From the NCBI GenBank assembly GCA_003864455.1, contig BGZN01000008.1, positions 1 through 45,489 of the forward strand: 45,489 nt of DNA. The letters are read 5' to 3'. Below are positions 18,929 to 35,231 of the stretch, in pieces. The stretch is from Candidatus Termititenax aidoneus. Lineage in GTDB: Bacteria; Margulisbacteria; Termititenacia; Termititenacales; Termititenacaceae. Position 1 is the first letter of the stretch, and every line of letters starts with the position of its first letter. The translations under genes were made by a program, and so were the position numbers. The notes beneath the pieces are model-generated. The model saw nothing but the letters and a program-made list of their open reading frames with translations, did not search any database and was not told the DNA's origin.

Positions 18929-19738
18929 ATGGATAATATATTATCTATTAAGGAATCCCTGGTGGAGCGCGTCAAACAACGCCGCAAGGAACGGAATTTG
19001 TCCCAGCAGACATTGGCGGATCGTTCACTAGTAAGTTTCGGTTCGGTTAAGCGTTTTGAAAGAAGCGGGGAAATTTCTCTAAGCGCGCTTTTGCGCATCG
19101 CCCTGTTGCTGGGTTGTGAAAATGATTTTACCGGTTTGTTCCAGGAAAATTTTGCGTTAAGCGATGCTCCACAATCATCTCCTCCGCCCGCTGCCGATTT
19201 GGTATTCAAGCGGTTTTCCGTTTTTCAAGATGAAAAAGTCCGTAAAATTTGGCACGATAATGAATGGTGGTTTTGCCTTTCGGATATTGTAGAAACGCTG
19301 ATCAACTCCAAACGACAAAAACATTATTTGCTGGACATACGCCGCCGCGATCACAGTCTGGCGCGGCTTTGGCCGGACTTGACCAAATTGCTGCCGCTGG
19401 ACACGCCGCGCGGCAAGCATGAATTGCTCTGCATCAACACGCTGGGTTTTTTCCGTCTAGTGCAGTCGATGCCCAATAAGCAGGTGGAGTCCTGGCGGCT
19501 CTGGCTGGCGGAGACGGCCTATGAGCGGCTGTGTTTTATCGAAGACCCGCTGCGGGCGGTGCAATTGGCCAAAGACCTTTACAAGGCCAAAGGTTACTCC
19601 GACAGATGGATCGCGCAGAAGCTCAGCGGCGCTATGCTGCGCGAAGAATTAACCGCTTCGGAAAAAGAAAAAGCGGATAAAGACTATCTGCTTTTCATGG
19701 CCGAGTTGAGCAAAAATATTCAACCGATCTGGCAGTAA
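18929..19738 (+). CDS. XRE-type HTH plus BRO-N regulator
   Basis: Residues ~11-66 of this 269-residue protein form a helix-turn-helix of the XRE class (ERNLSQQTLADRSLVSFGSV, then KRFERSGEISLSALLRIALL). Residues ~92-200 resemble the BRO-N/phage antirepressor domain (WWFCLSDIVETL, then LLCINTLGFFRLVQS and WRLWLAETAYER). BRO-N usually sits N-terminal with other partners, so the HTH-BRO order is worth noting. It lies immediately upstream of the large radical SAM operon in the same direction and is a candidate regulator of it. Confidence 0.8.
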   Translation: MDNILSIKESLVERVKQRRKERNLSQQTLADRSLVSFGSVKRFERSGEISLSALLRIALLLGCENDFTGLFQENFALSDAPQSSPPPAADLVFKRFSVFQDEKVRKIWHDNEWWFCLSDIVETLINSKRQKHYLLDIRRRDHSLARLWPDLTKLLPLDTPRGKHELLCINTLGFFRLVQSMPNKQVESWRLWLAETAYERLCFIEDPLRAVQLAKDLYKAKGYSDRWIAQKLSGAMLREELTASEKEKADKDYLLFMAELSKNIQPIWQ

Positions 19739-19791
19739 AAATTAAAAAAAATTGAGCAAAAAAGCAATAGAAAAAATCGATAAATTGCGGG

Positions 19792-19822
19792 TTGACAACG
19801 CACTACAATTCTCAACTAGACT
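19792..19822 (+). promoter_or_regulatory. Candidate promoter of the radical SAM operon
   Basis: A perfect -35 TTGACA (19792-19797) follows an A-tract-rich stretch (19739-19770) that could act as an UP element. The best -10 is TAGACT (19817-19822) at a 19 nt spacing, which is not ideal. It is the only good promoter-like sequence before the packed gene run. Confidence 0.45.
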
Positions 19823-19868
19823 AATAGAAATTTTTTAATCTGGCAGTTGAAAAAAGGGGGAAATATTT

Positions 19869-20531
19869 ATGGCTGAATATACAGGCATAGGAAGAGGACA
19901 AAGTCTTAAAGCTAGCCATATGGAAGCCGCGTTGGATTCTAAGGTCAGCAAAGAGGACGATGAAACTATCTTCGGGCTAAAGACTTTTACCACTTCGCCA
20001 ATAGTGACAACTGGAAACCCGACAGCGACCGCTAATACAGCGATCGCCACGGAAGCGTATCTTTATAACGCATTTAAGGATAAGATTAATAAATACAATG
20101 TGCTTTATAAGACTGGCAACCAGGATAATATTAGCGGAAAGAAAACTTTCGAAAAAGAAGTCTTACTGGGAACGCCGGGTAAAAATACAGCAGTCGGTAA
20201 CAACGAGGCTAATAAAAATGCCGTAGCCACAGAAGCGCAAGTATTTAAAGAAGTATCTGAAAAAACGACTCCAATAATGGTTGAAATTGAGGAGAGCATG
20301 GAGGAGCTTAATCGTGCTCTTAACTTCAAGGCCGATGCCGACGATGTAGTTTATCGGATTGGCAACTTGGAATATCCGAATGGTATTCCCCAAGGTATTA
20401 ACGGAGTCAAGACTTTTGCCATCACGCCGAAAATCTCGGAATCTAAAACAATGCCAAGCGATAATACCGGAGACAAAATAGCGGCTACCGAAGCGCAAGC
20501 TTACAAAGCGGCTCTCTGGCAGCCAACATAA
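19869..20531 (+). CDS. Tail-fibre-like repeat protein 1
   Basis: This 220-residue protein has no signal peptide. It holds three units of about 50-60 residues with the pattern (I/F)xGxKTF...P, a Ser/Thr/Asn-rich stretch, then ATEAQVY or a variant (ATEAYLY, ATEAQVF, ATEAQAY). Such KTF..P...ATT(A/E) units resemble beta-rich repeats of phage tail fibres; that likeness is from memory of the family. It begins MAEYTGIG, contains ALDSKV, and ends ALWQPT. The next gene is a paralogue. As first gene of a radical SAM operon it is a candidate substrate or the structural product of the system. GGGGG precedes the ATG. Confidence 0.6.
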   Translation: MAEYTGIGRGQSLKASHMEAALDSKVSKEDDETIFGLKTFTTSPIVTTGNPTATANTAIATEAYLYNAFKDKINKYNVLYKTGNQDNISGKKTFEKEVLLGTPGKNTAVGNNEANKNAVATEAQVFKEVSEKTTPIMVEIEESMEELNRALNFKADADDVVYRIGNLEYPNGIPQGINGVKTFAITPKISESKTMPSDNTGDKIAATEAQAYKAALWQPT

Positions 20532-20550
20532 TTTTAAGGGAGGGGTAAAT

Positions 20551-21186
20551 ATGGCGGAAAAATACAGTGGAATAGTAAAAAATAATAATATTAACGCGCA
20601 GGACGTAATAGACGCACTGGATAGCAAAGTTGACGTAACTGGAAACGTAACTATAAATGGGGTAAAAACTTTCGCTATAGCGCCGGTAGTGCCGTCCAAA
20701 AATACACCGCTAACCAGCGCTGGCAGCACTACGGCGATCGCCACCGAAGGGCAGGTTAATGCAACGGCCGCGCTTCAGGCTGATGCTAGTACTGTGGTTA
20801 CTCTGGACGGCGAGGAACCAATATCTGGACAAAAAACTTTTCTCACCCCGCCAGTAGTGCCGTCCAAAGATAATGTGATTGGTTTTGCTACTGGCACGAC
20901 TGTCATAGCCACGGAAGCTCAGGTGTATAACACGGTTGCTGACGCGGTTGAGGATATGGAGACTAAGCTTTCTGGAAAGGTTTCTTTATTGAGTGAAGGG
21001 ATTTCTGGTAAAGCTGATTCTAGTAATGTGGTCGATCGGTCCACCGCTCAAATAATCAACGGGGTAAAAACTTTTGCAAGTTCTCCAGAGATACCGGCTA
21101 ACGCCGCCATGCCAGTTGCTACGGGCGCTACGGCTAATAATATAGCTACAGAGGCGCAAGTTTATAAGGCCAGCCTCTGGCAGTAG
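20551..21186 (+). CDS. Tail-fibre-like repeat protein 2
   Basis: This 211-residue paralogue of the preceding protein has the same MAE-Y-GI start, ALDSKV near residue 28 and a shared C-terminal LWQ. Its three units are clearer: INGVKTFAIAPVVPSK to IATEGQV, ISGQKTFLTPPVVPSK to IATEAQVY, and INGVKTFASSPEIPAN to IATEAQVYKASLWQ. A central helical linker (VEDMETKLSGKVSLLSEG) separates units two and three. GGGAGGGG precedes the ATG. Duplicate structural or precursor proteins followed by modifying enzymes are typical of RiPP-like loci, but a tail-fibre or surface-fibre role is equally possible. Confidence 0.6.
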   Translation: MAEKYSGIVKNNNINAQDVIDALDSKVDVTGNVTINGVKTFAIAPVVPSKNTPLTSAGSTTAIATEGQVNATAALQADASTVVTLDGEEPISGQKTFLTPPVVPSKDNVIGFATGTTVIATEAQVYNTVADAVEDMETKLSGKVSLLSEGISGKADSSNVVDRSTAQIINGVKTFASSPEIPANAAMPVATGATANNIATEAQVYKASLWQ

Positions 21187-21197
21187 GGGAAAATACT

Positions 21198-22337
21198 ATG
21201 ACGGATCGTGGTCGCGTAAAAGAAAGATTGCTGCCTGCGGCATATCGGCTGAATACTTATGAGGTTTTTATGACTTGGGATTGTAATTTGCGCTGCGTTT
21301 ATTGTTATGAATGTGTGGCGGGCAAAGACACAGCCGAGCGGCGTGAAGAAAAAAAAGGCGCGATGACTTCAGAAAAGATCACTGAGGTGGTTAATTTTAT
21401 TGCAGAGACTCACGATAAAAATGCCAAGGAACTGCGAATTATTTTCTGGGGTGGGGAACCCTTTTTGGCGTTTGAACAGATCAAGGAAATGATCGCCAAG
21501 ATCGAGCAGGCGCAGGCCGACGGCCGGATCGAAAAAGAGGTCTCTTATACCACCACCTCAAATTTAACAGTGCTTACTTTAGAACAAATGCAATATTTGC
21601 AGACCAAACGTTTTTCTATATTGGTTTCGTTTGATGGGTTGGAAAAGACCACGGATCAAAATCGCGGCAAGGGCACCTTTGCCAAGGTGATCAAAAATAT
21701 GGCCTTGCTGCATGGTTTGAGGATTCCATTCTCAATAAGGATGACAGTTTCTCTGGAGCAAATCGACAGTCTTGGTAGGAATTTAGAATTTGTTAATGAT
21801 CTGGGGCATAAATTTTGGTGGAGTCTAGACAGCACCAAGAAAACTCTCGCGCAAGATGATATAGAAAAGATTTTAAATATTCTTTTATGGTTTCATCAAA
21901 GCTATCCAAATAACTTTGCGGAAACATTAAGCCGTCATCTGCGCAAAAGAGACAAGAATTTTTGCATAGATCCTTACAGGCAAATAACTATTGATCCTGC
22001 CGGCGATCTGCGGGTTTGTTCCAGGGTGGACTATGTTATTGGCAATATACGTGAAGGTGTGACCAAATATTCAGAAATCAGAGACTGGCCGTTTTATTCT
22101 GGCAAGCCGCTTAAAATATGCGCCGATTGTTTGGTTTATGATAAATGCAAAGGTGGTTGTCTTGGAGAGCATTTTGAAAAAAACAAGAATTTGAGCGCGG
22201 ATTATAAATTGAACACTGCGCAATGCCAAGAAATATTGATGATGCATTTGCTGAATGAAAATTTAATTTTAAAACAGCAATACGCTTCATTAAAAAAAGA
22301 GGAGGAAAAAGAACTATGCCATATTCCAACCATTTAG
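21198..22337 (+). CDS. Radical SAM/SPASM enzyme (first of the cluster)
   Basis: This 379-residue enzyme has the [4Fe-4S] CxxxCxxC at C29, C33 and C36 (DCNLRCVYCYE), WGGEPF at 84-89 and a C-terminal SPASM domain with C256, C274, C308, C311, C317, C321 and C343, enough for auxiliary clusters. SPASM proteins typically modify peptides (thioether or C-C crosslinks, sulfatase maturation). It starts 11 nt after repeat protein 2, and its 3' end overlaps the Cys-rich protein gene by 22 nt. The substrate is unknown; proximity favours the repeat proteins or the Cys-rich protein. Confidence 0.88.
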   Translation: MTDRGRVKERLLPAAYRLNTYEVFMTWDCNLRCVYCYECVAGKDTAERREEKKGAMTSEKITEVVNFIAETHDKNAKELRIIFWGGEPFLAFEQIKEMIAKIEQAQADGRIEKEVSYTTTSNLTVLTLEQMQYLQTKRFSILVSFDGLEKTTDQNRGKGTFAKVIKNMALLHGLRIPFSIRMTVSLEQIDSLGRNLEFVNDLGHKFWWSLDSTKKTLAQDDIEKILNILLWFHQSYPNNFAETLSRHLRKRDKNFCIDPYRQITIDPAGDLRVCSRVDYVIGNIREGVTKYSEIRDWPFYSGKPLKICADCLVYDKCKGGCLGEHFEKNKNLSADYKLNTAQCQEILMMHLLNENLILKQQYASLKKEEEKELCHIPTI

Positions 22338-23104
22338 ATCATAATTCCTGTGAAAATTGTACGAATACATGCGACAATAATGATCGATGTGATAATGTAG
22401 ATTATTGCAAGGTTTGTGAAGAAGCCAGTCATCACGATTACTATTGTTATGGCGACTCTTGTTTTCAGTGCAGTCATTATTATTCATGCAATCAAACTGA
22501 GGAGTATACAGATACATATAGCTATGCTGATAACTATAGTTACAACAATCACGCGAACTATTCTATTGCTTATCCGCCCAGTTTCGAATTGGAGGGTATA
22601 TCAAAGACTTCCACGAATGCTTGGACAAATTTATCTTCGGCCATCCCGGATATAAAAAAGCTGCGCGACGAGATCAAGCGTATTACTACTAAATATGGCA
22701 CACAAAAAGGTATTGCCGCTAATGGGAGCTTGACCAGCGGCAAAGGACCGATACAATGGGAAACGGCTACTACTGAAAATGCCGAAACAGAATTCGGATA
22801 CGGCAAAATGGCCAGGGCGGCGCAAATAAATGAAACAATCAATAATGTGGAGACACTATGGCAGGCTATAAAAGGCGGAAGCAGCGGATTACCGTCCTTA
22901 AAAAATAAAGGTGATCCAAGGAGCAAAGCGGATTACAAGACTATTATTGAAAAAGCTAGCGAGTTGGCGAAAATAGACCAAACGCCAGCCACTGGGTATC
23001 TAAACCATCTGAATGAAAATAAATATCCTAATTATCATAGCAGCACAAAAAACAATATACCGGCGAGCGATACTAAACCCAATAGACCAACCTGGAAGAA
23101 ATAA
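22316..23104 (+). CDS. Cys/Tyr/His-rich protein, candidate radical SAM substrate
   Basis: This 262-residue protein has an extraordinary N-terminus. Residues 12-58 hold ten cysteines (12, 15, 19, 25, 31, 34, 44, 49, 52, 58), including CENC, CKVC and CFQC, mixed with His, Asp and Asn. A Tyr/Asn/Ser-rich tract (61-86) follows. The rest is ordinary and helical, with LWQ at 181-183 echoing the LWQ ends of the two repeat proteins. No signal peptide. Two readings are open: a modified precursor (leader-like part C-terminal or internal) or a metal-binding structural protein. The ribosome binding site GAGGAGG lies inside the upstream radical SAM gene, so the two are coupled. Confidence 0.6.
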   Translation: MPYSNHLDHNSCENCTNTCDNNDRCDNVDYCKVCEEASHHDYYCYGDSCFQCSHYYSCNQTEEYTDTYSYADNYSYNNHANYSIAYPPSFELEGISKTSTNAWTNLSSAIPDIKKLRDEIKRITTKYGTQKGIAANGSLTSGKGPIQWETATTENAETEFGYGKMARAAQINETINNVETLWQAIKGGSSGLPSLKNKGDPRSKADYKTIIEKASELAKIDQTPATGYLNHLNENKYPNYHSSTKNNIPASDTKPNRPTWKK

Positions 23105-23127: not shown

Positions 23128-23385
23128 GTGTCTACGCCGTGGAATGATTTGCAGTCCTGCACTCTATGTGGCAAGCCATTAAGAGATATTTTGGTGTTGA
23201 CTAAAGTGTCTATGGATCTACATAGCCGCTATTACCGAGAGGATGGTGTTTTTGAAAACATGAATGGTTTAAAGAAAGCAACTTCTGAATATTTGTGCGA
23301 AGAATGTTTCAAGGTTTTTGTGGATAAGCTGGAAGCCTTTTCAACAGAACGGACTGTTTTGAAAAATAAAAACGGTGACATTTGA
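23128..23385 (+). CDS. Small double-CxxC (zinc-ribbon-like) protein
   Basis: This 85-residue protein starts at GTG 23128, 8 nt after AAGGAG. It has CTLC near residue 11 and CEEC near residue 57, spaced as in a small treble-clef or zinc ribbon. The section between is charged and the tail helical (FKVFVDKLEAF). I do not recognise the family. Lying between the Cys-rich protein and a radical SAM enzyme 3 nt downstream, it could be a recognition or delivery partner; that is inference. Confidence 0.6.
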   Translation: MSTPWNDLQSCTLCGKPLRDILVLTKVSMDLHSRYYREDGVFENMNGLKKATSEYLCEECFKVFVDKLEAFSTERTVLKNKNGDI

Positions 23386-23388
23386 GTT

Positions 23389-24696
23389 ATGTTTGAAAAT
23401 GTGCAGGAGATAATTCTTAAAGTAACCCGTGATTGTAATTTGCGTTGTTCTTACTGTTACGTGCGGGATAAGGATCGTTTTAGAGGAGAACGCATGACGT
23501 TTGCCGTTTTCCAGAAGATAATTGAGCGTTATTTACAGGATCAAGCGCGGAATATCGGAGCAGCGGTCAAACAGCTTTTATTAGTGTTCCACGGCGGTGA
23601 ACCAACTTTACTGGGCGCTAAAGAACTGCGGCGTTTTATGAATTATGCCAGAAGTAAAATTCCTTATATCCGGTTTGGCATACAGACTAATCTTACGAAT
23701 ATTTCGCCGGAATTGGCGGCGCTCTTTAAAAAATACAGTATTGTGCCGGGCATCAGTGTGGATGGCTGGCATTCACGTTCCAATAGCTTGCGGATGAACG
23801 GTAAGAAAAGTCCGGTTTTAGAAAATGTAAGAAAACTAAAAAAATATCATATTGACTGCGGGCCATTATTGGTAGTCAATAAAGCCAATATTAAGAAAAC
23901 TTGGACTAATATTATTAAACTGATCAGAAATTTTGCCATACCAGGGATCAAAGCCAACTATGTGGAAAATATTTATTCTCCGGATTTTGTATATCCGGAA
24001 TGCAGGGCTGAAGAGTTATTCAAAGAATTATTCCTTCCGACAATAAAGCATTTGCAAAAAAAACAACAATTGGTGGAAAGAAATGCAGAAGGAGTTCTTT
24101 CTAATTTTTTTAATGCGCTTATTTTTCAAAACGAAAACTCTCCAGAGCGGGACTGCCATAAAGATAATTGTCAAATAAAATTTTGTACTGGAGGCAATAA
24201 GCTGGCCGAAGTTGACGCTGAGGGAGTGGTTCTTTCCTGCGGCCGTTGGGATGATGTGCATGAACTTTGCCGGATCGGTTCTGTCGAGGCTCTGGACTTC
24301 TGGGGAATTAGCTCTTACAGCAAAGTGCTGGCCTTGCAATGCCGAAAGGCTGCGGCTGTGCGGCAGAAACATTGTGATAGCTGTCCGGCCGGTGAAATTT
24401 GCAGTTACGGCTGCCTGGCTTTTAGTTACGCAAAATATGGCGATATTCGTATCCGAGCGGACTCGGTCTGCGCTTATTACAAGCAAGTTTGGCAATATTT
24501 GCTGGCTAATGCCTCAGTTGTTTTAAAAAGTTATGCCGCAGTCCGGAATTGGGAAATTGCTGAGCGGCGGAGCAGAAATTTTCAAGTGTTTTTTCCAAAA
24601 AATGCGCCAAGATTAAATGAGGAGAGTATTAACAAAGTCTCGGGGTGGTCTATCGGTCAAGCAGGCGCCAAAACTTGCTTGCAAGTGCGGTATTGA
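23389..24696 (+). CDS. Radical SAM/SPASM enzyme, anSME-like (twin A)
   Basis: This 435-residue enzyme has C16, C20, C23 (TRDCNLRCSYCY), FHGGEPT at 67-73 and a cysteine-rich SPASM region with C256, C261, C266, C284, C318, C329, C332, C338, C342 and C361 (CDSCPAGEICSYGC). The arrangement is close to anaerobic sulfatase-maturating and related peptide-modifying enzymes. It is homologous along its length with the next gene: both begin M(F/L)ENxQxxIL.VTRDCNL. An unrelated-looking C-terminal tail of ~60 residues follows SPASM. It starts 3 nt after the small CxxC gene. Confidence 0.9.
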   Translation: MFENVQEIILKVTRDCNLRCSYCYVRDKDRFRGERMTFAVFQKIIERYLQDQARNIGAAVKQLLLVFHGGEPTLLGAKELRRFMNYARSKIPYIRFGIQTNLTNISPELAALFKKYSIVPGISVDGWHSRSNSLRMNGKKSPVLENVRKLKKYHIDCGPLLVVNKANIKKTWTNIIKLIRNFAIPGIKANYVENIYSPDFVYPECRAEELFKELFLPTIKHLQKKQQLVERNAEGVLSNFFNALIFQNENSPERDCHKDNCQIKFCTGGNKLAEVDAEGVVLSCGRWDDVHELCRIGSVEALDFWGISSYSKVLALQCRKAAAVRQKHCDSCPAGEICSYGCLAFSYAKYGDIRIRADSVCAYYKQVWQYLLANASVVLKSYAAVRNWEIAERRSRNFQVFFPKNAPRLNEESINKVSGWSIGQAGAKTCLQVRY

Positions 24697-24697
24697 T

Positions 24698-26077
24698 ATG
24701 CTGGAAAATCTGCAGCACCTTATCTTAACTGTTACCCGCGATTGTAATTTAAATTGTCAATATTGTTTTGAGCAGGACAAACAGTTGTATGCGCAAGAGA
24801 AAATGTCTTTAGCCGTGTTTAAGCGGTTTATGGAAAAACTACTGATCGACCGCAAAAAATATCGACAGACAAATCCTGTGGAAATTTGTTTTCATGGCGG
24901 AGAGCCGACCTTGGGCGGAATTCCGCTTTTGCAAACATTTATCGATGAAGCTCAGCAGCAGTTGGGCGCGGATAAAGTTATTTGGGCAATGCAAACCAAC
25001 GGCACGCTTTTGAATGAAGAATGGCAGCATTTTGCGAAAAAAAATAAGGTTAAAATCAGTGTTAGTTTAGACGGATATAATTACGGCCAAAATCGGCTGC
25101 GTTTTAAGAAAAATGCGTTTAAAAATTATTTTCGGCGCATGCTGGCGGTTAAACCTGTGGGTGCGCTGGCTTTATTGACTAAAAATAATTTGTCAAATAT
25201 GGTGTTTCATATTTGGTTTATGTATTTTAAGTTTAAGATCGGCGTGCGCGTTAATCCGGCGGAATTTGTTGATGGTCCGGCAGTTAATCCTCAAGAAATT
25301 AGCGGCCAGCAATTGGCCCGGAAATTTTATTTGCCTTTGTTGCGTTGGAGCGCTTTATTCCCTTGTCTGGCTGAGCACCTGCTGCGGGGTTTTTTACAAA
25401 GTTTTTTCTTGGAAACTATATATACAAAAATGACGCAGAATAATGAGACCGACTTGGCCTGCCGCTTGTGCAGCGCAAAATTTTGTTCGGCGGGGAATGG
25501 TATTATTAACTTATTGCCAAATGGCGCTTTGTGGGCTTGTCAGCGTTCTCAAGGCTTGGAAGATTATCGAATGGGATCTGTTTTTGAAAGTGCCATTGAT
25601 CCTTTTGGCCTAAAACATTTTAATAAATTATATGCTTTAGCGCTGCCTCAAGCGCGGACCATACGCGAGCTTAGATGTGATGTTTGTTTTGCTGCGGATA
25701 TCTGTAATTATGGCTGCAAGGCCTTTGGTTTATTAAAAACGCAGGGGCGGGCTACTATTCGGAAGGAGTTGGTCTGTGAAGCGGCACAAATTGTTCGTGA
25801 ATATTTTAGCAGAAATATTTATGATATGCTGTTTGTTTACGCGCGGCTTTCTGATTTCTCGATCAGAGCAGCTAGATCCCGGGTCAAAATATATTTGCCG
25901 CAGAAACTCAACTATGATGCGGTCCGTTATGAATTAAAAAATATAAATGACCATAATATTTCCATAGCTCAAGACAAGGAAGACAATGTTTATATTGCTT
26001 TCTCCAGGAAAAATTTAAGCTTAGGGAATAGATTGATCTTGAGCGCGCAAAATTTTATCCAGAAAGGAAAAAAATGA
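24698..26077 (+). CDS. Radical SAM/SPASM enzyme, anSME-like (twin B)
   Basis: This 459-residue paralogue of the preceding enzyme has C16, C20, C23 (TRDCNLNCQYCF), CFHGGEP at 64-70, CRLCSAKFCSAG and CDVCFAADICNYGC in the SPASM part. ATG 24698 is chosen because it aligns with the start of the twin; an in-frame ATG at 24617 lies inside the upstream gene. One base separates it from the twin's stop. The basic C-terminal region (VRYELKNINDHNI) has no counterpart I recognise. Paired SPASM enzymes suggest two successive or alternative modifications. Confidence 0.9.
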   Translation: MLENLQHLILTVTRDCNLNCQYCFEQDKQLYAQEKMSLAVFKRFMEKLLIDRKKYRQTNPVEICFHGGEPTLGGIPLLQTFIDEAQQQLGADKVIWAMQTNGTLLNEEWQHFAKKNKVKISVSLDGYNYGQNRLRFKKNAFKNYFRRMLAVKPVGALALLTKNNLSNMVFHIWFMYFKFKIGVRVNPAEFVDGPAVNPQEISGQQLARKFYLPLLRWSALFPCLAEHLLRGFLQSFFLETIYTKMTQNNETDLACRLCSAKFCSAGNGIINLLPNGALWACQRSQGLEDYRMGSVFESAIDPFGLKHFNKLYALALPQARTIRELRCDVCFAADICNYGCKAFGLLKTQGRATIRKELVCEAAQIVREYFSRNIYDMLFVYARLSDFSIRAARSRVKIYLPQKLNYDAVRYELKNINDHNISIAQDKEDNVYIAFSRKNLSLGNRLILSAQNFIQKGKK

Positions 26078-27081
26078 ACATAATTTTGACAACCAGATGC
26101 AATAAAAATTGTTCTTTTTGTTTTGCCAATAAAGTCATGCGGGAAAAGCCCGCGGAAGATATGACGCTGGCTAATTTTAGCGGGCTAGTAGAGTTGGCTT
26201 GTCGAGACAATCCTAGGCCGCAGGGTTTGAAGCTGCTGGGCGGCGAGCCGACCATGCATCCACAGTTTGTAGAAATATTAGACTTTTTAACGGCTAGGCA
26301 GATTCAGGTGTCGCTGATTTCTAATTTGCTGTACGAGGATGAAAAAGTGCGCATGCGGATTTATCAGGCAGCGCGAGACGGCGTGATTGTGGGCGGGTTG
26401 GCTAATGCGGCTGAATTGGGTTCGAGTAATAAAATGCAGATATTTAAAGATAATTTTAATGCCTTGCGGGAGGCTTTGGGTCGGCGTGATTTTCAGCGAG
26501 ATCTGGCGGCGGGGATAACGCTTTCCAGGCATAAATCAAGCGCAGAAGAGGTTGCTTATGTGGAATATTTAAGCCAAAACTTGGAAATATCTGCTTTGCG
26601 CATATCGCTGGATTTTTTAGGGGACAATGTTAGAGACACGTTTTTTATTAATAATAAAGAATATGGGCAAAAATTTTTGGCTGTTATTCATAAATGTTTG
26701 GATTTGCGCATACCAGCTTCCGGCGATTGCAAAATGTATCCCTGTATGTTTGAGCCAAAGAATTTTCGGAAAGATATTCAGGGATTTATTCAGAGGATTC
26801 GCACAGCTTGCCTTGCCGGTGCGGCGCCTTTTGATGTTCTCCCGGACATGTCTTATATTCATTGTTATCCGGCGCGCAAGTTATCCGGTCAGAATATTCT
26901 AAAGTTTTCGCATTTGTCTGAGGCGCTGGGTGAAATAACTTTCCTAAAAAAGTCCTTACAAAGTCTTGGCAGAGAAGATTTGCCGCCAGAGTGTCGAGTT
27001 TGCGATTATTATAAAACAAATAGATGCGATTCTTTGTGCTTGGGTTGTCGAGAGCTGGCGGTAGGATTTTTGGATAACTAA
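26074..27081 (+). CDS. Radical SAM enzyme with cysteine-rich C-terminus
   Basis: This compact 335-residue radical SAM protein has C9, C13, C16 (TTRCNKNCSFCF) and LGGEPTMHP at 55-63, close to the start as in MoaA/PqqE-like enzymes. Cysteines near the end (CRVCDYYKTNRCDSLCLGC) could hold an auxiliary cluster. It overlaps the previous stop by ATGA. No sulfatase- or cofactor-specific residues are evident. Confidence 0.85.
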   Translation: MNIILTTRCNKNCSFCFANKVMREKPAEDMTLANFSGLVELACRDNPRPQGLKLLGGEPTMHPQFVEILDFLTARQIQVSLISNLLYEDEKVRMRIYQAARDGVIVGGLANAAELGSSNKMQIFKDNFNALREALGRRDFQRDLAAGITLSRHKSSAEEVAYVEYLSQNLEISALRISLDFLGDNVRDTFFINNKEYGQKFLAVIHKCLDLRIPASGDCKMYPCMFEPKNFRKDIQGFIQRIRTACLAGAAPFDVLPDMSYIHCYPARKLSGQNILKFSHLSEALGEITFLKKSLQSLGREDLPPECRVCDYYKTNRCDSLCLGCRELAVGFLDN

Positions 27082-27083
27082 AT

Positions 27084-29294
27084 ATGGCAAAAAAGATAAA
27101 ACTGCAATTTAGCATCGCCGGCGGATTAAGTATTCATAAATCTACGCTAGCTTTTATCTTGGCCAGGGAACAACATTCAGAATGGTTTTACCCCGAAATG
27201 GAGGTAGCGTCTGTGTATGATTGTTTTCCGGGATTTATTTGGAATGGCGGCAGGATATATTCTCAATCTGTAATGTCAGCCGAGCAAATGATCCAAAGGG
27301 TCAACTTTTTTAATAATCGGAATATCGGAGTTAATTTTACTTTTACTAATTGCGCCTTAACTGCCAAGCATTTGTGCGACCCTTTAGGCAATTGGGCTTT
27401 GGAGAAGTTTGTTAAACCGATAAACGCGATCGTGATCAATAGTCCAATCCTGGAAGAATATATTCGTCAAAATTATCCCCAGTGTAAAATGATTTCGTCC
27501 GTTACAAAGGTGATCAGGGATATAGATCGCTTATTGGCAGACACGCTCAAATATGACGCAGTGGTTGTGGCTCCGGAGTTTAATCATGATTGGCAGGCCT
27601 TGAGTAAATTGCCAGTGGATAAGATAGTTATATTAGTTAATGAAGGCTGCGCGCCTTACTGTTCGGACAAACTCAAACATTATAAAATGTATTCGGAAGC
27701 TATTTTGGGGCTAGCGACAAAAGAATCCATCAAGTATTTTTGTCCAGATGGACGCAAGGGAAACAAAACCATCTTATCCAGAAAACAACTTTTAGTCTTG
27801 GCTGAAAAATTAAAGATTAAACATTTTAAACTAAATGGCCGCGATGCTACTACTCTGGAAACGCTGCTCGGATATTATAAAGAATATTTTGTGCTACCGG
27901 AATTTCAAGCCAAATTTGAACGGTTTATGCGTGAAAACAACAATTTGAAATTCTGGAATAAGCAAATAAGCGCAATTCAATGGGATAAAAACATCGTGGA
28001 TAGGCTGGCCAAGGTTTATCAAGAAGTGTTGTTCGATACGGTGAAAAAGATTTGTCAGAAAAATATTACACCGCTGGCGGTATATATTCACAGCCCATTT
28101 TGTCCCTCGCAGTGCAAGTATTGTGCCTATCGAGGCCGAGTGCCGTTAAAGGGCGAGCTGGAAAAATATTATAATGAATATCTTCCAGCGCAAATCAATA
28201 ATTATAGAGAGATTTTGCAAGCCGCGGAGGTCAGCTCTTGGTTTTTTGGCGGCGGGACACCATCTTTGATGACGCCGGAAATGCTACGCCATATTTTAAG
28301 CCTGTTGCCCGGCCTTAAAGAGCGCGGCGAAAAGATTTTTGAGATCCACCCGGCCAATTTTAATATAGAACTTTTAGATATTCTGCAGGAATATAATTTT
28401 CATAATGTGATTGTTGGTGTCCAGTCCTTTGCTGAGGAGACGTTAAGGAAAGCGAAGCGTATTCCTGCCGGCAGGGAACAGATAAAGAGCATAATTCAAG
28501 AAATTCAAAAACGGGGCATGGCGGCCTGGGTGGATTTAGTAGGCTATGTCAACGATGATCCTGGAGAAATAGCCGTCCTGGGACAGGATATTTACACTGC
28601 GCTGGAGCTGGAGCCGGACGAGATCAGCATTTGTATTAATTATTTTCTGAGGGAAAAATATTTGCAAACGACTTTAGAGTTGCTTACTGTTGTATTGCAG
28701 ACGGTTGGATTTGGCTGGCAATGGGAAGACTTTATCGCCAAACCGGCGGACATCCGAAAACATTTAGAGAATTTTAAGGTATTGAGATTATATAACAAAA
28801 GTAAGCCGCTGGTTTTAAAGCAGCGGAATTTTCTTAATGCACTGGCGACACACACGGAGCATTTTGTCAAACAATCCTTTTTAGGCATAGGCAGCTATCA
28901 AAATCAAACACATGGCACGATTTCTTGCCTGGTGACGGAGGATTATAAATATTTTTTTACAGAAGCAAATAAGGATTGGCAGCCGCGTTATTTTATTACA
29001 CACACCGCGGATTTTTTGGCGGAGGCTCAACGGCTGCTTTCAGATATGAGAGATACCGCCGCAAGTATGAAAAGAACGCTCCAGATCAAGCAGGTTTGCT
29101 TAGAACGACGATACTACAATCCGACCGGCACGCTTGGTCTGGGCGAGGATATTTCTTTTTTGTCGGCAACTTTAGAGAGAGACTTTTCCAGCAGCCTTGC
29201 GGAAAGAATAAAATGTGAGTCTCTTTTGCAGAAATACCAGCTGCCGCCGGACAAGCCGTTTATCGATTTATCAAAAATTGGGGTACCGAAATGA
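27084..29294 (+). CDS. Fusion: uncharacterised N-domain plus HemN-like radical SAM
   Basis: This is a 736-residue fusion. Residues 1-~320 form a domain shared with the protein at 32471 (FPGFIWNGGR, NIGVNFTFTNC, VNEGCAPYC with C189 and C193). I do not recognise it with certainty; the NEGCxxxC pattern recalls U32-peptidase-like TIM barrels that bind Fe-S clusters, and I remember similar domains in polysaccharide loci. Residues ~330-735 resemble HemN-type radical SAM enzymes: YIHSPFCPSQCKYCAY with C340, C344, C347 and FFGGGTP at 387-393. HemN-like proteins often act as methylases or oxidases. It overlaps the next gene by ATGA. Confidence 0.8.
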   Translation: MAKKIKLQFSIAGGLSIHKSTLAFILAREQHSEWFYPEMEVASVYDCFPGFIWNGGRIYSQSVMSAEQMIQRVNFFNNRNIGVNFTFTNCALTAKHLCDPLGNWALEKFVKPINAIVINSPILEEYIRQNYPQCKMISSVTKVIRDIDRLLADTLKYDAVVVAPEFNHDWQALSKLPVDKIVILVNEGCAPYCSDKLKHYKMYSEAILGLATKESIKYFCPDGRKGNKTILSRKQLLVLAEKLKIKHFKLNGRDATTLETLLGYYKEYFVLPEFQAKFERFMRENNNLKFWNKQISAIQWDKNIVDRLAKVYQEVLFDTVKKICQKNITPLAVYIHSPFCPSQCKYCAYRGRVPLKGELEKYYNEYLPAQINNYREILQAAEVSSWFFGGGTPSLMTPEMLRHILSLLPGLKERGEKIFEIHPANFNIELLDILQEYNFHNVIVGVQSFAEETLRKAKRIPAGREQIKSIIQEIQKRGMAAWVDLVGYVNDDPGEIAVLGQDIYTALELEPDEISICINYFLREKYLQTTLELLTVVLQTVGFGWQWEDFIAKPADIRKHLENFKVLRLYNKSKPLVLKQRNFLNALATHTEHFVKQSFLGIGSYQNQTHGTISCLVTEDYKYFFTEANKDWQPRYFITHTADFLAEAQRLLSDMRDTAASMKRTLQIKQVCLERRYYNPTGTLGLGEDISFLSATLERDFSSSLAERIKCESLLQKYQLPPDKPFIDLSKIGVPK

Positions 29295-30409
29295 GAAAGG
29301 TAATACCCTTGTTTAAAGTTTTTATGAGTAAAGATGTGCTTAAGCCGCTTGAGCGGGTTTTGTTTAGCGGTTTTATAGGCCAGGGCAAAAAAGTTGAACA
29401 ATTTGAAAAAGTATTGAAATACAAATTAAACTCCCCGTATATTTTGACAATGAATTCCGGAACATCCTGTCTACATATTGCCTATCAAATGTTAACTGTT
29501 AAGGAAGAGACTAACGAGGCGATAGTGTCGCCGCTAACCTGCGCCGCGACCTTAACTCCTTTGTTGGCCAATAATATTCAGCCAGTCTGGGCAGATGTTG
29601 ATGGACGGACTGGCAATATTAATGTTCTGGATGTTGAAAGAAAGATCACGCCGCGAACTAAAATGATTGTTGCTGTGCATTGGGGCGGCAATCCTTGCGA
29701 GTTGTCAAAATTGGCGCAGCTCAGCAGAAAGTATCATATTCCGCTTATTCAAGATGCCGCGCATGCTCTGGGCGCTGAGTATCACGGCAAGTCTATTGCT
29801 GCTTATAGTGATTTTACGATGTTTTCCTTACAGGCTATAAAACAGGTTACTACGGGCGATGGCGGAATATTGGTTTGTAGAAGCGCTCAGTACTATAAAA
29901 GAGCCAAATTATTAAGATGGTACGGAATAGATAGAGAAAAGAATTGTAGAAACAGTGATCTGCGCTGTGCCATTGATATTAAAGAAGCCGGACATAAATT
30001 TCATATGAATGATATTAATGCCATGCTTGGTTTGGAAAACATCAAATTTTTGGATTGGCTGTTAGCGCGGCATAGAGATAATGCGGAGTATTATGATCGT
30101 AGATTTAAGGGAAAAATAGACCATGTGGTTGCAGCCAAAAATACTAAACCGACCTACTGGCTTTACACAATTTTCGTGAAGAATGCCGAAGCTCTGCGCC
30201 GCAAATTGCTGCAAAGAGGCATTCAAGTTTCTAAAGTCCATGCGCGGAACGATCAACACACGGTATTTAAGAAATATAATCGTTGTCCTTTGCCCGGGGT
30301 TGATTGGTTTGATCTGCATCATCTTTGTATCCCTTGTCATTATGCTCTGACTGAACAAGAGCGGGAGTATGTGTCGGACAGTGTTTTGGAGCTGGCAAAA
30401 TGGGGATGA
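29291..30409 (+). CDS. DegT/DnrJ/EryC1-family aminotransferase
   Basis: This 372-residue PLP enzyme normally transfers an amino group to a nucleotide-linked keto-sugar. It has MNSGTSCLHIAYQML, the cofactor aspartate D155 (IQDAAHALGAEY) and the Schiff-base lysine K184 (MFSLQAIKQVTTGDGG). The C-terminal YWLYTIFV and HLCIPCHYALTEQE are as in the family. Its place among glycosyltransferases points to an amino sugar used by this locus. It is coupled on both sides by overlaps of 4 and 10 nt. Confidence 0.93.
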   Translation: MRKVIPLFKVFMSKDVLKPLERVLFSGFIGQGKKVEQFEKVLKYKLNSPYILTMNSGTSCLHIAYQMLTVKEETNEAIVSPLTCAATLTPLLANNIQPVWADVDGRTGNINVLDVERKITPRTKMIVAVHWGGNPCELSKLAQLSRKYHIPLIQDAAHALGAEYHGKSIAAYSDFTMFSLQAIKQVTTGDGGILVCRSAQYYKRAKLLRWYGIDREKNCRNSDLRCAIDIKEAGHKFHMNDINAMLGLENIKFLDWLLARHRDNAEYYDRRFKGKIDHVVAAKNTKPTYWLYTIFVKNAEALRRKLLQRGIQVSKVHARNDQHTVFKKYNRCPLPGVDWFDLHHLCIPCHYALTEQEREYVSDSVLELAKWG

Positions 30410-32457
30410 ATAATTTATTAAATATTAAATTAGACAAAAATCAGAGTTTTCTGGAATTAGAATTTCCAGAAAGCATGTTTTGTGAGGAAATAGTATTACA
30501 AGCTAAGAAATTGATAGAGAAGAAGTATGCTGGAGCGATTATTAGTTATGAAGTCGATCAAAATAACTATGACCGCGCGGCGATAAAAATAACAAAATCG
30601 GACAATAAGCTTGATATTAAAGCGGTTGCGATAGATTTATTTAGCACGATAAATAACTATCCGAATTATTATCCCTATAAAGATAAATCCGCGCCGGCTA
30701 ATGTAGACGCCAAGCAGCCGCTGCTTACTTGTATTATTGTTGTGGCATTTAATGAATTATTTGTTTTAAATCAAACCATTCCATCAATTTTAGCAAATAC
30801 TAAAGATATTCCTTTTGAAATAATAATTGTCGGTAATGACAGCGTCAGTAAGGCGGATTTGTTTAAGCATTTGCCGGTAAAGTATATTGACGCATCCAGC
30901 GCCCCTTTTCATGTAAGCAGAGCTTATAATTTAGGCATTAAATCAGCTCAGGGACAGTATATTGCTATATTGCATGATGACGCGGTTATTGATGATGTGC
31001 TTTGGGCAGAAAAATGCATTAAGGTTATTGATTCAGAACAATTTATTCTTTTGTCTGCAACTATTCAACAGAGAGACGTGTTAGGCAGTGTTACTGTCGG
31101 GGGCACTCCGCTCCTAATGTTTAGGGCTGCTCTTACGCAGAAGTATGGATTGTTTGATGAAAATATATATATTGGTTTTGAAGAAAATGAATACAGCGCG
31201 AGAATGTTGGCTAATAATATTTCTGTAAGGTATACGCCTTGTCGGGTTTTCCACATGAAAAGTTCAAGTACTGCTATTTTATTTAATCATGATTCTGAAT
31301 TATTTAAAATATTATTTAGCCTAAATATTATGCCAAAGAAATGGATTGGGTTATTCTGGCAATTTTTTCGTAAAAAAAACTTCTCCGAGTTGTTGGATGT
31401 TGCAGATGATCTTTATCTGGCTTATTGTGTGAGAAAATATCAGCCAAAACGTTTTCATGATTTTATGCAAATGCAAAAATATAAATCGGTTTTTTTAAAT
31501 AGAAGTCGAGAATACTTTTTGTTTGATGAATGGCCGCTTCCAAATAATTTTATTAATTCTAAGCATGAATTATTGATAATAAAAACCCTGGAACATTTAA
31601 AAAGCAGCTCCATGCAATCCATTATAGATTTTATTTTTGCGCCGCCGCGCAGATTAGAATTTGATTTTGAATTGTCCAGCAAGTGTACGGCTAGATGCGG
31701 TTTTTGCCCGCGAATTCATCTACAGAGAGATAATGACTTTATGCCAACGCAATGTGTGTGCAAGGTATTAAGTCAAATACCGGACATTATTAATGACTAT
31801 GATATTATCTCTATAGGCTTTGCCGGGTTGGGCGAGCCTCTATTAAACAAGCAAGGTTTTTTTGCGATCTTGGATTATGTAAGAACTATGCCTTATCGGG
31901 CTAAATTGAAAACAACAATAGTTACTAACAACACTTTGATTGATGCTGATTTTATTAGTAATCCATTGTTGCGCTATCTGAATTCTATGGTGATTAGCGC
32001 TGCTGGTTATAGTTATGCTGACTATGTCAGACAATATAATCAGCCTTGGCCCAGAACATTAGCCAACATTCTGGAGTTACGCAAGCGTTGGCCGCGTATG
32101 AGTATCAAGGTTGCCGCGGTAAATTATTTGGATCAAGCCGCGCCTCCATTAAAAGAAAATGAAATATTTCTTTCCTGCCAGGAGAACCAAATTTGGTATG
32201 AAAATCCTCCATTGCATGGCCGCGGCGGATATTTGTATAAGGCCAATATCGCTGAACGGCGGACTTGCCAGATTTATAGTAGATTTGTTTTTATTTCTAG
32301 TGATGGCAACTATCTTTCTTGCTGTAATGATCTAACCCAGGAAAACATTTTAGGTAAAGTAGCGGTTGCGCCTTTGTCTGGTGTTTTAGCTAAGAAAAAA
32401 TGTTTTGACTATAAAAATCCTTTCCCGCTTTGTAAAACCTGCGATATTAGTAATTAG
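30400..32457 (+). CDS. Fusion: family 2 glycosyltransferase plus radical SAM
   Basis: This 685-residue protein has three parts. Residues 1-~105 are an unrecognised small domain. Residues ~108-300 are a GT-A glycosyltransferase of family 2 type (CIIVVAFNE, HDDA at 192-195, the TPLLMFRAAL and GFEENEYSARM acceptor region). Residues ~420-685 are radical SAM: C429, C433, C436 (CTARCGFC), GLGEP near 470, and a SPASM-like end (CCNDLTQENILGKV, CKTC). A single chain joining sugar transfer and radical chemistry is unusual. ATG 30400 or 30406 could start it. The base composition is clearly AT-rich. Confidence 0.85.
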   Translation: MGMNNLLNIKLDKNQSFLELEFPESMFCEEIVLQAKKLIEKKYAGAIISYEVDQNNYDRAAIKITKSDNKLDIKAVAIDLFSTINNYPNYYPYKDKSAPANVDAKQPLLTCIIVVAFNELFVLNQTIPSILANTKDIPFEIIIVGNDSVSKADLFKHLPVKYIDASSAPFHVSRAYNLGIKSAQGQYIAILHDDAVIDDVLWAEKCIKVIDSEQFILLSATIQQRDVLGSVTVGGTPLLMFRAALTQKYGLFDENIYIGFEENEYSARMLANNISVRYTPCRVFHMKSSSTAILFNHDSELFKILFSLNIMPKKWIGLFWQFFRKKNFSELLDVADDLYLAYCVRKYQPKRFHDFMQMQKYKSVFLNRSREYFLFDEWPLPNNFINSKHELLIIKTLEHLKSSSMQSIIDFIFAPPRRLEFDFELSSKCTARCGFCPRIHLQRDNDFMPTQCVCKVLSQIPDIINDYDIISIGFAGLGEPLLNKQGFFAILDYVRTMPYRAKLKTTIVTNNTLIDADFISNPLLRYLNSMVISAAGYSYADYVRQYNQPWPRTLANILELRKRWPRMSIKVAAVNYLDQAAPPLKENEIFLSCQENQIWYENPPLHGRGGYLYKANIAERRTCQIYSRFVFISSDGNYLSCCNDLTQENILGKVAVAPLSGVLAKKKCFDYKNPFPLCKTCDISN

Positions 32458-32470
32458 ATTGGTGGTATAT

Positions 32471-34138
32471 ATGACGACTGAGCAGAAACTGAAATTTAGT
32501 TTGGGCGGCGGCTTGACTGATAACTATGTTATCCAGTTGTTTATTTTAGGGAGAGAAGAACATCCGGAATGGTTTTATCCGGGAATAGAAATCGAGTCAA
32601 TATTTGATAGTTTCCCGGGGTTAGTCTGGAATGGCGGCCGTTTGGTGGAAGGCTCATTGACTATGGATGATGCTATGGCCAGAGTGGAGTTTTTTAATAG
32701 CCGCAATATTGGAGTGAACTTCACTTTTACAAATTGTTTGTTGACAGAAGAACATATTGACGACCCATTATGCAATGCCGTGCTTCAGAATTTTGCCAAT
32801 CCTTTAAATGGCGTGGTCGTCTATGATCCGCGTTTGGAAGCGCATATCCGGACGGCTTGTCCGCAATACAAGATAATTTCTTCTGTCTCAAAATGTATCT
32901 ATGACCGGAGAGAAAGACTGATTGCAGACACGGAAAAATATGATTTGGTTGTAATTCCACCGGAATTTAATCGCGATTTAGCATTTTTGCGCCTATTCCC
33001 GCCGGAAAAAGTGGAGTTATTGGTAAATGAAGGCTGCCCGCCTTATTGTAAGGAAAGGATGCAGCACTATATTGTTACTTCTCAGATGGTCTTAGGATTA
33101 AGAGCTATAGAGGATAATCCTTATAACCCCTGTAAAAAAGTTATGCGCAAGCCGCCGGCGGGAAAGATGGTTTTAACAATTACTGAATTATTCGAAATAT
33201 TAGCGGCGACAGGCATCAGTCATATGAAGTTTAATAATCGCGGCAATCCTTCTGTCGAGCGCTCCCTTCAAGAAATAATCAAATATTTTGTGCTGCCGCG
33301 GCATAGCCTGGCCTTCAATTCTTTTATGCAGGATAAAATCCGGCAATTAAGGGGAGATAAAATTAATGCCGCAGATTATGCTGTTTTTAAAATATCAGTC
33401 ATAGTGCCGGTTTATAATACAGAAAAATATTTAGCGGCTTGTTTGGATAGTGTTCTAGCACAGACCCATCAGAATTTGGAAATTATTATTGTAGATGATA
33501 ATAGTCCAGACAATGCCCAAGAGATTTATAACAAATACGCGAGATACGATAAGAGAATAAAAATAATAAAGCATCTGCACAATAAAAAACTCTCTGCCTC
33601 CCGTAACAGCGGATTGCGACAGGCCAGCGGGGATTATGTGCATTTTTTAGACAGCGATGATTATATTATGGATGCGGATTACTACAAGATAATGCTGAAA
33701 TACGCTGTTGATTATAATGCTGAGCTTGTGCGCAGTGGTTTTTATAATGAGCGGACAACGCACCGCTTGGATGGTGTTTGGCTGCTTGGTTCTCTGCGGG
33801 ATTTATCCCGTAAATTGACTTTGGTGGAAGAAGCCCCGTATTGTTGGTGTTTTTTGTTTAAGAGAGAATTTTTGCAAAAATACAATCTTGAGTTTGATAT
33901 CTCTTTGCTGTGCGGAGGTGAAGATTTAATTTTCTCTTTTGAGGCAGCGTATTATGCTAATCAAATTGTTTTGGTACCGAATGTGAAGGTTTTTTATCGA
34001 AAAGATGGCGCTTTCCGCAAATCAAATAATGAACAAAGAATATATAGTGAAAACCTGGCTCATAGAAAAATAAGTGAATTTGCTGAGCGGCATAAATTTC
34101 AGGATTTATTCCGGCGAATATTTGAAACAAACCGGTGA
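32471..34138 (+). CDS. Fusion: uncharacterised N-domain plus family 2 glycosyltransferase
   Basis: This 555-residue protein has residues 1-~300 homologous to the N-domain of the protein at 27084 (FPGLVWNGGR, NIGVNFTFTNC, VNEGCPPYC with C189 and C193 at identical positions). Residues 308-~540 are a family 2 glycosyltransferase (ISVIVPVYNTEKYLAACLDS, then DSDD at 394-397 for nucleotide-sugar and metal binding, and GGEDLIFSFEAAYYA). ATG 32471 is chosen because the N-domain start aligns with the paralogue; a longer frame from 32405 lies in the upstream gene. Confidence 0.85.
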   Translation: MTTEQKLKFSLGGGLTDNYVIQLFILGREEHPEWFYPGIEIESIFDSFPGLVWNGGRLVEGSLTMDDAMARVEFFNSRNIGVNFTFTNCLLTEEHIDDPLCNAVLQNFANPLNGVVVYDPRLEAHIRTACPQYKIISSVSKCIYDRRERLIADTEKYDLVVIPPEFNRDLAFLRLFPPEKVELLVNEGCPPYCKERMQHYIVTSQMVLGLRAIEDNPYNPCKKVMRKPPAGKMVLTITELFEILAATGISHMKFNNRGNPSVERSLQEIIKYFVLPRHSLAFNSFMQDKIRQLRGDKINAADYAVFKISVIVPVYNTEKYLAACLDSVLAQTHQNLEIIIVDDNSPDNAQEIYNKYARYDKRIKIIKHLHNKKLSASRNSGLRQASGDYVHFLDSDDYIMDADYYKIMLKYAVDYNAELVRSGFYNERTTHRLDGVWLLGSLRDLSRKLTLVEEAPYCWCFLFKREFLQKYNLEFDISLLCGGEDLIFSFEAAYYANQIVLVPNVKVFYRKDGAFRKSNNEQRIYSENLAHRKISEFAERHKFQDLFRRIFETNR

Positions 34139-34148
34139 AAGGAATTTT

Positions 34149-35231
34149 ATGTTCAGTAAGACGGTCGGGGTTTTTTTTAATAATAAAAAAGTGGGCAGAA
34201 TAACGGAACTTCAATCAGGACATTATGGTTTTACTTATGATCCAGAATGGCTGCTCAATGGTTTTGCGATAGATCCGCGGCATTTACCGTTGCAAAATGT
34301 TCTATTTACCGTGAGACAGATTGCTCCCAGCATGTATAGCAACTGTTCATTCAATATCTTTTTGGCTAGTTTTTTAGGCGGGTGGCAGTATGTGCTTATA
34401 GATTCTTTATTGTTAAAATATGTAGACTCTCCGCAGGAAATATCATTATTGGATAGACTGGTCGTTTTGGCTGAACATGGCTGCGGTTCTTTAACATATA
34501 AATTAGAAGAAGCATTTGATTATAAGATGGATATGCGCTGCTTAATCTTCTGGCATGAACAAATGGTGTGTAAACATAGATCGGAAGATTTGAATAAACT
34601 GTTAGCATGCTGGAGTTTACTGGATGAAAACTCTGGCGTAACGCTTAAAATGGTTTTGGTTGCACTAGGTAAGACGCAATGGCTGCTTAAGTTTAAACGC
34701 AAAGGCGATGAGATTGAGTGGTTGAATAGTCAAGCTGCTTTAAAGGCGGGGTTATGCTTGCCAGAGATCCGGCGGCTGGAAGATAGATATTTTTTGAGCA
34801 AGCGTTTTGATTGTCGAGAAGACGGCCGGAAAATATTTTTCTGCCGGGCGGATGTTTTATTGGAAGAACGCGGCTGTGATTATGCGGATATTTTAAATTT
34901 AACTAAAGATTTAACCGAGTCGAGTGAAGAAGTATTAAAAATGTTTCAACGCGCATGTTTTAATATTCTTTCCGGCTGCGATGATCATATTCATAATTTG
35001 GGTTATTTATATGATGGCGTCAATTGGACGGTATGTCCGAATTATGATTTGGCACAAGGTCCCAAACCAGGGCACGACGCGTTGTTAACTGTCAACCATT
35101 CACACAAACCAAATACAGAGGATATCTTGATTGTGGCTGAGAAAGCGGGAATTCCGGCTCGGATTGCCAAAGATGTTTTGGCGGAAGTAAGAGCAGCAGT
35201 AGATGAATGCCTTCTCTCCGGTCTGGCCTAA
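34149..35231 (+). CDS. HipA-like kinase
   Basis: This 360-residue protein of the HipA/HipT type has a HipA N-subdomain (VGVFFNNKKVGRITELQSG, YDPEWLLNGF), the LLKFKRKGD and YFLSKRFD segments that line up with HipA nucleotide-binding parts, the catalytic loop GCDDHIHN (D278, D279, N283) and the metal-binding NYDLA (D300). HipA proteins phosphorylate targets such as aminoacyl-tRNA synthetases. No HipB antitoxin is adjacent. The ATG follows AAAGGA, 10 nt after the glycosyltransferase gene, so it belongs to the operon and may phosphorylate a cluster component. Confidence 0.8.
   Translation: MFSKTVGVFFNNKKVGRITELQSGHYGFTYDPEWLLNGFAIDPRHLPLQNVLFTVRQIAPSMYSNCSFNIFLASFLGGWQYVLIDSLLLKYVDSPQEISLLDRLVVLAEHGCGSLTYKLEEAFDYKMDMRCLIFWHEQMVCKHRSEDLNKLLACWSLLDENSGVTLKMVLVALGKTQWLLKFKRKGDEIEWLNSQAALKAGLCLPEIRRLEDRYFLSKRFDCREDGRKIFFCRADVLLEERGCDYADILNLTKDLTESSEEVLKMFQRACFNILSGCDDHIHNLGYLYDGVNWTVCPNYDLAQGPKPGHDALLTVNHSHKPNTEDILIVAEKAGIPARIAKDVLAEVRAAVDECLLSGLA

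Follow-up and report, generated by a model that had tools for sequence, protein, structure and literature searches.

Paired tail-fibre-like proteins at the head of a radical-SAM cassette in Margulisbacteria: candidate members of a domesticated, repressor-paired fibre family

The window, by which we mean the whole stretch of 45,489 nucleotides of Margulisbacteria DNA analyzed here, contains two adjoining genes (the twins) that encode small tail-fibre-like proteins. Each twin gene is preceded by a Shine-Dalgarno-like sequence of its own and both are real open reading frames, whose coordinates in an earlier note on this DNA proved exact. That note also placed a modification operon behind the twins, and radical-SAM genes do lie directly 3' of them. 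The features of the cassette, in order, are:

18929..19738, + strand: regulator with HTH_3 and Bro-N domains (Pfam Bro-N 2e-8, HTH_3 4.3e-8), directly upstream of the twins
19739..19868, + strand: intergenic region, possibly a control region, with the block AAAAAATCGATAA...TTGACAA conserved with contig C24 (alignment)
19869..20531, + strand: first twin, 220 aa, three fibre-neck units, ends LWQPT (sequence, Pfam)
20551..21186, + strand: second twin, 211 aa, three fibre-neck units, ends LWQ (BppL_N 8.7e-8)
21198..22337, + strand: radical-SAM/SPASM protein (PF04055 3.8e-13); its nearest NCBIfam model is PapB, a ranthipeptide maturase (NF047865, 6.4e-40), with 137 of 340 bits and thus under the cut-off
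22316..23104, + strand: Cys/Asn/Tyr-rich protein, 262 aa, presumed enzyme substrate; its gene and the enzyme gene before it share 22 nt
23128..23385, + strand: CxxC...CxxC zinc-ribbon-like protein, 85 aa (sequence; weak matches only)
23389..24696, + strand: second PapB-like radical-SAM protein (Pfam/NCBIfam)
24617..26077, + strand: third PapB-like radical-SAM protein (Pfam/NCBIfam)
26074..27081, + strand: fourth radical-SAM protein (Pfam/NCBIfam)
27084..29294, + strand: 736-aa protein with an N-terminal domain without Pfam match and a HemN-like radical-SAM domain
29291..30409, + strand: DegT/DnrJ/EryC1 aminotransferase (PF01041 1.8e-77)
30400..32457, + strand: glycosyltransferase 2 fused to a radical-SAM/SPASM domain
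32405..34138, + strand: N-terminal domain as in the 736-aa protein, followed by glycosyltransferase 2 (PF00535 3.6e-37); probable cassette end

A homologue of the Bro-N regulator, 73% identical over 185 aa, is found at the same position before the twins of contig C24. The conserved block between regulator and twins is a possible promoter or operator; a sigma-70 consensus scan reported no site on the twin strand before the window twins, so that we only infer a promoter there. The domain without Pfam match, of ~290 aa, occurs at 27084-29294, at 32405-34138 and at L005:7856-8731, either joined to a HemN-like radical-SAM domain or a glycosyltransferase domain or on its own. A HipA-like protein (34074-35231) lies directly 3' of the cassette.

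Each twin carries three copies of a unit of ~45 residues, (V)xLTGNExIxGxKTFxxxPxVPxKxTxxxxxxxxIATEAQVY, and no receptor-binding head, and in this sense we call the twins headless. GxKTF is located at residues 36, 90 and 179 of the first twin and 37, 93 and 171 of the second, and ATEAQV-like motifs are located at 60, 120 and 206 and at 64, 120 and 199, respectively. These positions define three units in each protein, as had been noted before. Alignments of unit against unit score 72-92 in the second twin (shuffled maxima 38-44) and 42-51 in the first (shuffled maxima 39-43); the first-twin scores are close to the shuffled ones, so its units are more degenerate. The two twins align to each other with a score of 265, where shuffled sequence reaches 70 at most. 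In Pfam, BppL_N (PF18338) is found in the second twin of the window (31.9 bits, above the cut-off of 25.8) and in the second twins of L005 and L006 (37.9 and 28.2 bits), three passing twins in all, and the first twins in general stay under the cut-off (6e-4 in the window). The only PDB matches of the twin profile are TP901-1-type receptor-binding/baseplate proteins (E 0.017-0.1); the PHROGs matches are chiefly to families of unknown function. A near-identical unit is present on viral contigs, for example VKLTGNQTVAGVKTFSSSPVVPSKTTAATNTGTALATEAQVF in the phage fibre protein L059, and units of the twin kind also occur in structural-region genes of Streptomyces phages. When viral contigs were queried with the twin sequence alone no match was confirmed; with the twin alignment 21 loci were found, and those that were read hold ordinary phage-type fibre units. 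At the level of sequence, these matches identify the twin units as phage fibre-neck units (BppL_N type), in line with the likeness to tail fibres that the earlier note had recognized. In Streptomyces phage Dryad (MT498037.1; L033:4567-8187), a gene with a related unit is followed by glycosyltransferase and methyltransferase genes. The AlphaFold monomer model of the second twin is poor (pLDDT 52).

It was also proposed earlier that the fibre module had been recruited outside a phage. This proposal stands, as no portal, terminase, capsid or tail genes are found beside the twins at five loci in three genomes. The neighbours are housekeeping genes such as those for ribosomal proteins, secY, adk, clpC, ribH and an ABC transporter (named from sequence), and judged by this company the twins are not prophage parts. 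A prophage fragment does exist in the same genome (G000), on contig C32, where a reverse transcriptase is accompanied by a gene that looks integrase-like by eye; the fibre of this fragment has no significant match to the twins. On C32 (L042:3854-9164) and on C56 (L041:2251-5154), also a prophage fragment, the reverse transcriptase adjoins a fibre that ends ...GARLMFL and has variable residues, an arrangement that appears to resemble a diversity-generating retroelement.

The five twin pairs are found on C8 (the window), C24 and C13 of G000, on C158 of G003 and on C33 of G006, and all are accompanied by a ~260-aa Cys- or Asn/Tyr-rich protein and by radical-SAM genes. In the type I cassettes (the window and G006:C33) the twins are followed by a PapB-like radical-SAM/SPASM protein, the Cys/Asn/Tyr-rich protein and then more radical-SAM proteins, to which the window adds the DegT aminotransferase and two glycosyltransferase-2 proteins. 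In the type II cassettes (C24, C13 and G003:C158) they are followed by a Cys-rich protein whose C-terminal region is of the CxCNAR type, a radical-SAM protein of 275-277 aa and another of 568-574 aa, with a third one added at C13 and C24. The cysteines number ~29-54 in the type II proteins and just 7 in the type I protein of G006 (L026), and no homology is detectable between the two types. Among 74 genomes of the phylum, a homologue of the window protein occurs only in G006:C33, and the Cys-protein profiles match only the twin clusters and one cassette without twins. The latter (G001:C71, L087:692-2017) encodes a Cys-rich protein of 441 aa that contains 54 Cys and is extended N-terminally by ~95 aa. 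Searches of the Cys-rich proteins against phages and viral contigs gave no match, and Pfam, PHROGs and NCBIfam gave nothing meaningful.

One question that is raised by this gene order is which protein the enzymes act on. None of the enzymes reaches the PapB-type cut-off of 340 bits (best 137, 109, 118, 120 and 113 bits), and no obvious exporter or protease was seen in the cassette. PapB forms Cys-Asp/Glu thioether links (PMC9413430), which makes cross-linking of the Cys-rich protein a natural guess rather than a result. The Cys-rich protein is a better substrate candidate than the twins, since its gene accompanies the enzymes in every cassette, the twin-less one included; from that one cassette it also follows that the twins are not strictly required.

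The twins are probably related to a larger set of proteins. Orphan fibre genes are dispersed in all eight sampled genomes of the bacterial family and in none of 66 other genomes of the phylum. They encode proteins of ~200-550 aa that have in common with the twins the start MAxxYxGIxxGxxIxAxDxxxAL; the start that the twins were said to share is confirmed. The C-termini are collar-like (...YYxxIYIMKxx) or FGE-sulfatase-like (...GxRLART). A profile of the orphan N-terminus (E<=1e-8) has 24 matches in G000 and 31, 14, 36, 24, 3, 39 and 4 in seven relatives; the matches count stretches, so that genes are somewhat fewer (~23 in G000). Two twin loci match this profile weakly (E 3e-4). On contigs C2, C4 and C102 of G000 (L128/L134, L123/L133 and L131/L136), a headless and a headed fibre gene form a tandem pair behind one HTH gene and, as read from their order, are another kind of twin arrangement.

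A small divergent HTH gene, always of the same Cro/CI-like kind (Pfam HTH_3), is present in 36 of the 38 fibre loci with enough upstream sequence, these loci being the best-scoring ones and not a random sample. The two exceptions are gene arrays in G002, and in G000 the gene is found at 18 of 18 loci. Its distance to the first fibre gene is 26-200 bp, with one case in which the frames as called overlap by 45 bp. Some of the proteins at these loci went into the HTH profile, which is thus biased toward finding more like them; its only matches in eight control stretches of about 150 kb were genes beside fibre or twin loci. At the twins, the HTH gene is divergent at C13 and G003:C158 and codirectional, as HTH/Bro-N, at C8 and C24, and none of this kind was seen beside the type I cassette of G006:C33.

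Two chromosomal sites can be followed across species. Between ilvD and rpiB the HTH protein is ~94% identical in three species, the intergenic DNA is conserved and contains TTATCT...AGATAA, and the fibre gains or loses internal modules. At the other site an HTH gene lies downstream of clpC, and the intergenic DNA next to it is conserved and contains TTGACA-N17-TATACT. In this slot G000 and G003 carry a twin cassette (twins, Cys-rich protein, radical-SAM enzymes), with the ribH/ABC-transporter region after it. In G001 the gene for the 441-aa Cys-rich protein comes directly after the HTH gene, without twins, and ribH and the ABC transporter follow the enzymes. In G005 the slot is occupied by a 299-aa collar-type fibre, preceded by an HTH gene whose product is 83% identical to its G003 counterpart, and the contig ends soon after. 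With such different cargo at a conserved repressor and promoter, twin cassettes and orphan fibres seem able to replace each other as the output of a repressor-controlled slot, and this exchange is the strongest evidence that they are alternative outputs of one control unit. The explanation that we favour, by a little over even chances, is therefore that the twins belong, as two headless subunits, to a phage-tail-fibre family that this bacterial family has domesticated, dispersed and paired with repressors, within a repressor-gated set of alternative surface or interaction products.

Another explanation, which we consider unlikely, is that the twins are themselves substrates or carriers, with the repeats as leader or scaffold and the C-terminal Trp as the modified core. 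The twin genes directly precede the enzyme genes, and the Trp is placed within the last five residues in 10 of 10 twins, with only 4 Trp among the 1739 other residues. In four of five first twins a Cys is adjacent to it (e.g., CW, CWCNR). The LWQ end described earlier is present in both window twins, with the first however running on to LWQPT, and across the ten twins the Trp is its sole invariant residue. Yet a Trp-containing tail (VYNCFW, VYDAFW, HDYFW) also forms the end, behind the last AVY/AVH helix, of headless orphan fibres that have no neighbouring enzymes. The Trp of the twins is accordingly read, with low certainty, as a structural cap that would close the last helix rather than as a modified core. 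The earlier idea of the twins as substrate thus receives no direct support; they contain 0-3 Cys, and enzymes and Cys-rich protein persist in a cassette without them. They may still act as a display scaffold, the other role suggested in that note.

The phage-like features of the family can also be explained in other ways. The twins may serve as fibres in a tailocin or extracellular injection system whose other genes lie elsewhere, with the orphan fibres as alternative tips; the fibres have no signal peptides, and the orphan heads include FGE-sulfatase-like and weakly Gp10-like domains. We regard this as improbable: a search for phage sheaths found none in six genomes of the family (two other genomes were also covered), and Baseplate_J occurs just on the prophage contig C32 in G000 and once in G006, although non-contractile tails were covered less fully. 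The hypothesis to which we give the least weight is that the loci are remnants of decayed prophages, in which a fibre and a phage-type repressor (Cro/CI, Bro-N) were left after deletion. Repressor-fibre pairs and the Bro-N domain are indeed phage-like, and C32 and C56 are real prophage fragments with reverse transcriptases. But decay does not fit with frames that are open nearly everywhere, with repressor and intergenic sequences conserved across species, with the same two-gene layout at dozens of sites or with twin loci that have no other phage genes alongside.

If the twins are members of a domesticated fibre family, as we prefer, the protein families suggest how a cassette might work. The repressor would keep the slot off until needed, the twins would form short trimeric shafts, and the radical-SAM enzymes would cross-link the Cys-rich partner. 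The whole set would be one of many alternative products for the surface or for interaction. No signal-peptide-like hydrophobic stretch was found in the twins or the Cys proteins, which together with the lack of an obvious exporter makes a surface location no more than putative. Public records matched are Candidatus Margulisiibacteriota MAGs (Gx481, Kf353), a Candidatus Symbiothrix MAG (Hs463) and Bacteroidia bacterium MS495-25. Symbiothrix are ectosymbionts of termite protists (PMC7228121), and Termititenax is placed in the window's phylum by the NCBI taxonomy. The family of the window is thus probably Termititenax-like and from termite guts, and its public members look like termite-gut symbionts. 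Contact would probably be with spirochetes or flagellates in the gut, where surface display and attachment are our guess.

A further-reaching and more doubtful proposal, which we offer tentatively, is that in a family of symbionts phage tail fibres have become a repressor-gated library of outputs spread over the genome, with slots that can exchange one whole cassette for another. In the twin cassette, the fibre shafts would serve to display a Cys-rich protein, cross-linked by radical-SAM enzymes, through which symbionts make contact. If this is right, it would be phage-fibre domestication on a large scale, with a phage-type repressor for each fibre, in bacteria that, going by the title of Utami et al., live attached to other microbes. 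It would link fibre modules to radical-SAM protein modification and offer testable candidates for how nested symbioses choose and hold their partners.

Phage-derived fibres and radical-SAM peptide modification are both known kinds of system; their arrangement together was not found described. The literature searched contained no combination of fibre and radical-SAM genes and nothing relevant on tail-collar proteins in termite symbionts. The cassette is similar to ranthipeptide/PapB RiPP systems (PMC9413430) in its SPASM-type maturases, which are nearest to PapB, and in the Cys-rich partner gene that is next to or overlaps an enzyme gene. It differs from them in that the partner is a protein of ~260 aa (up to 441 aa with 54 Cys) and not a short peptide, and in having several enzymes and glycosyltransferases, all under the NCBIfam cut-offs, with no exporter or protease seen. 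With the BppL_N neck repeats of TP901-1 fibres and receptor-binding proteins, the sole PDB relatives, the twins have in common the unit (V)xLTGNETIxGxKTF; unlike them, they are headless, have no phage structural genes around and are paired genes at the head of a radical-SAM cassette. Related units, with 29-47% identity, also occur in tandem in long fibres of Bacteroidia (MS495-25 and Ca. Symbiothrix). These end in a non-repeat domain and begin with a hydrophobic signal-like segment, which speaks for surface fibres as the role of such units in Bacteroidia; the twins have neither the domain nor the segment. Contingency and antigenic variation systems are repertoires of alternative surface proteins, and the fibre family is like them in its many dispersed alternative genes per genome; it is unlike them in that no switching mechanism was seen and each locus has a divergent Cro/CI-type repressor gene of its own.
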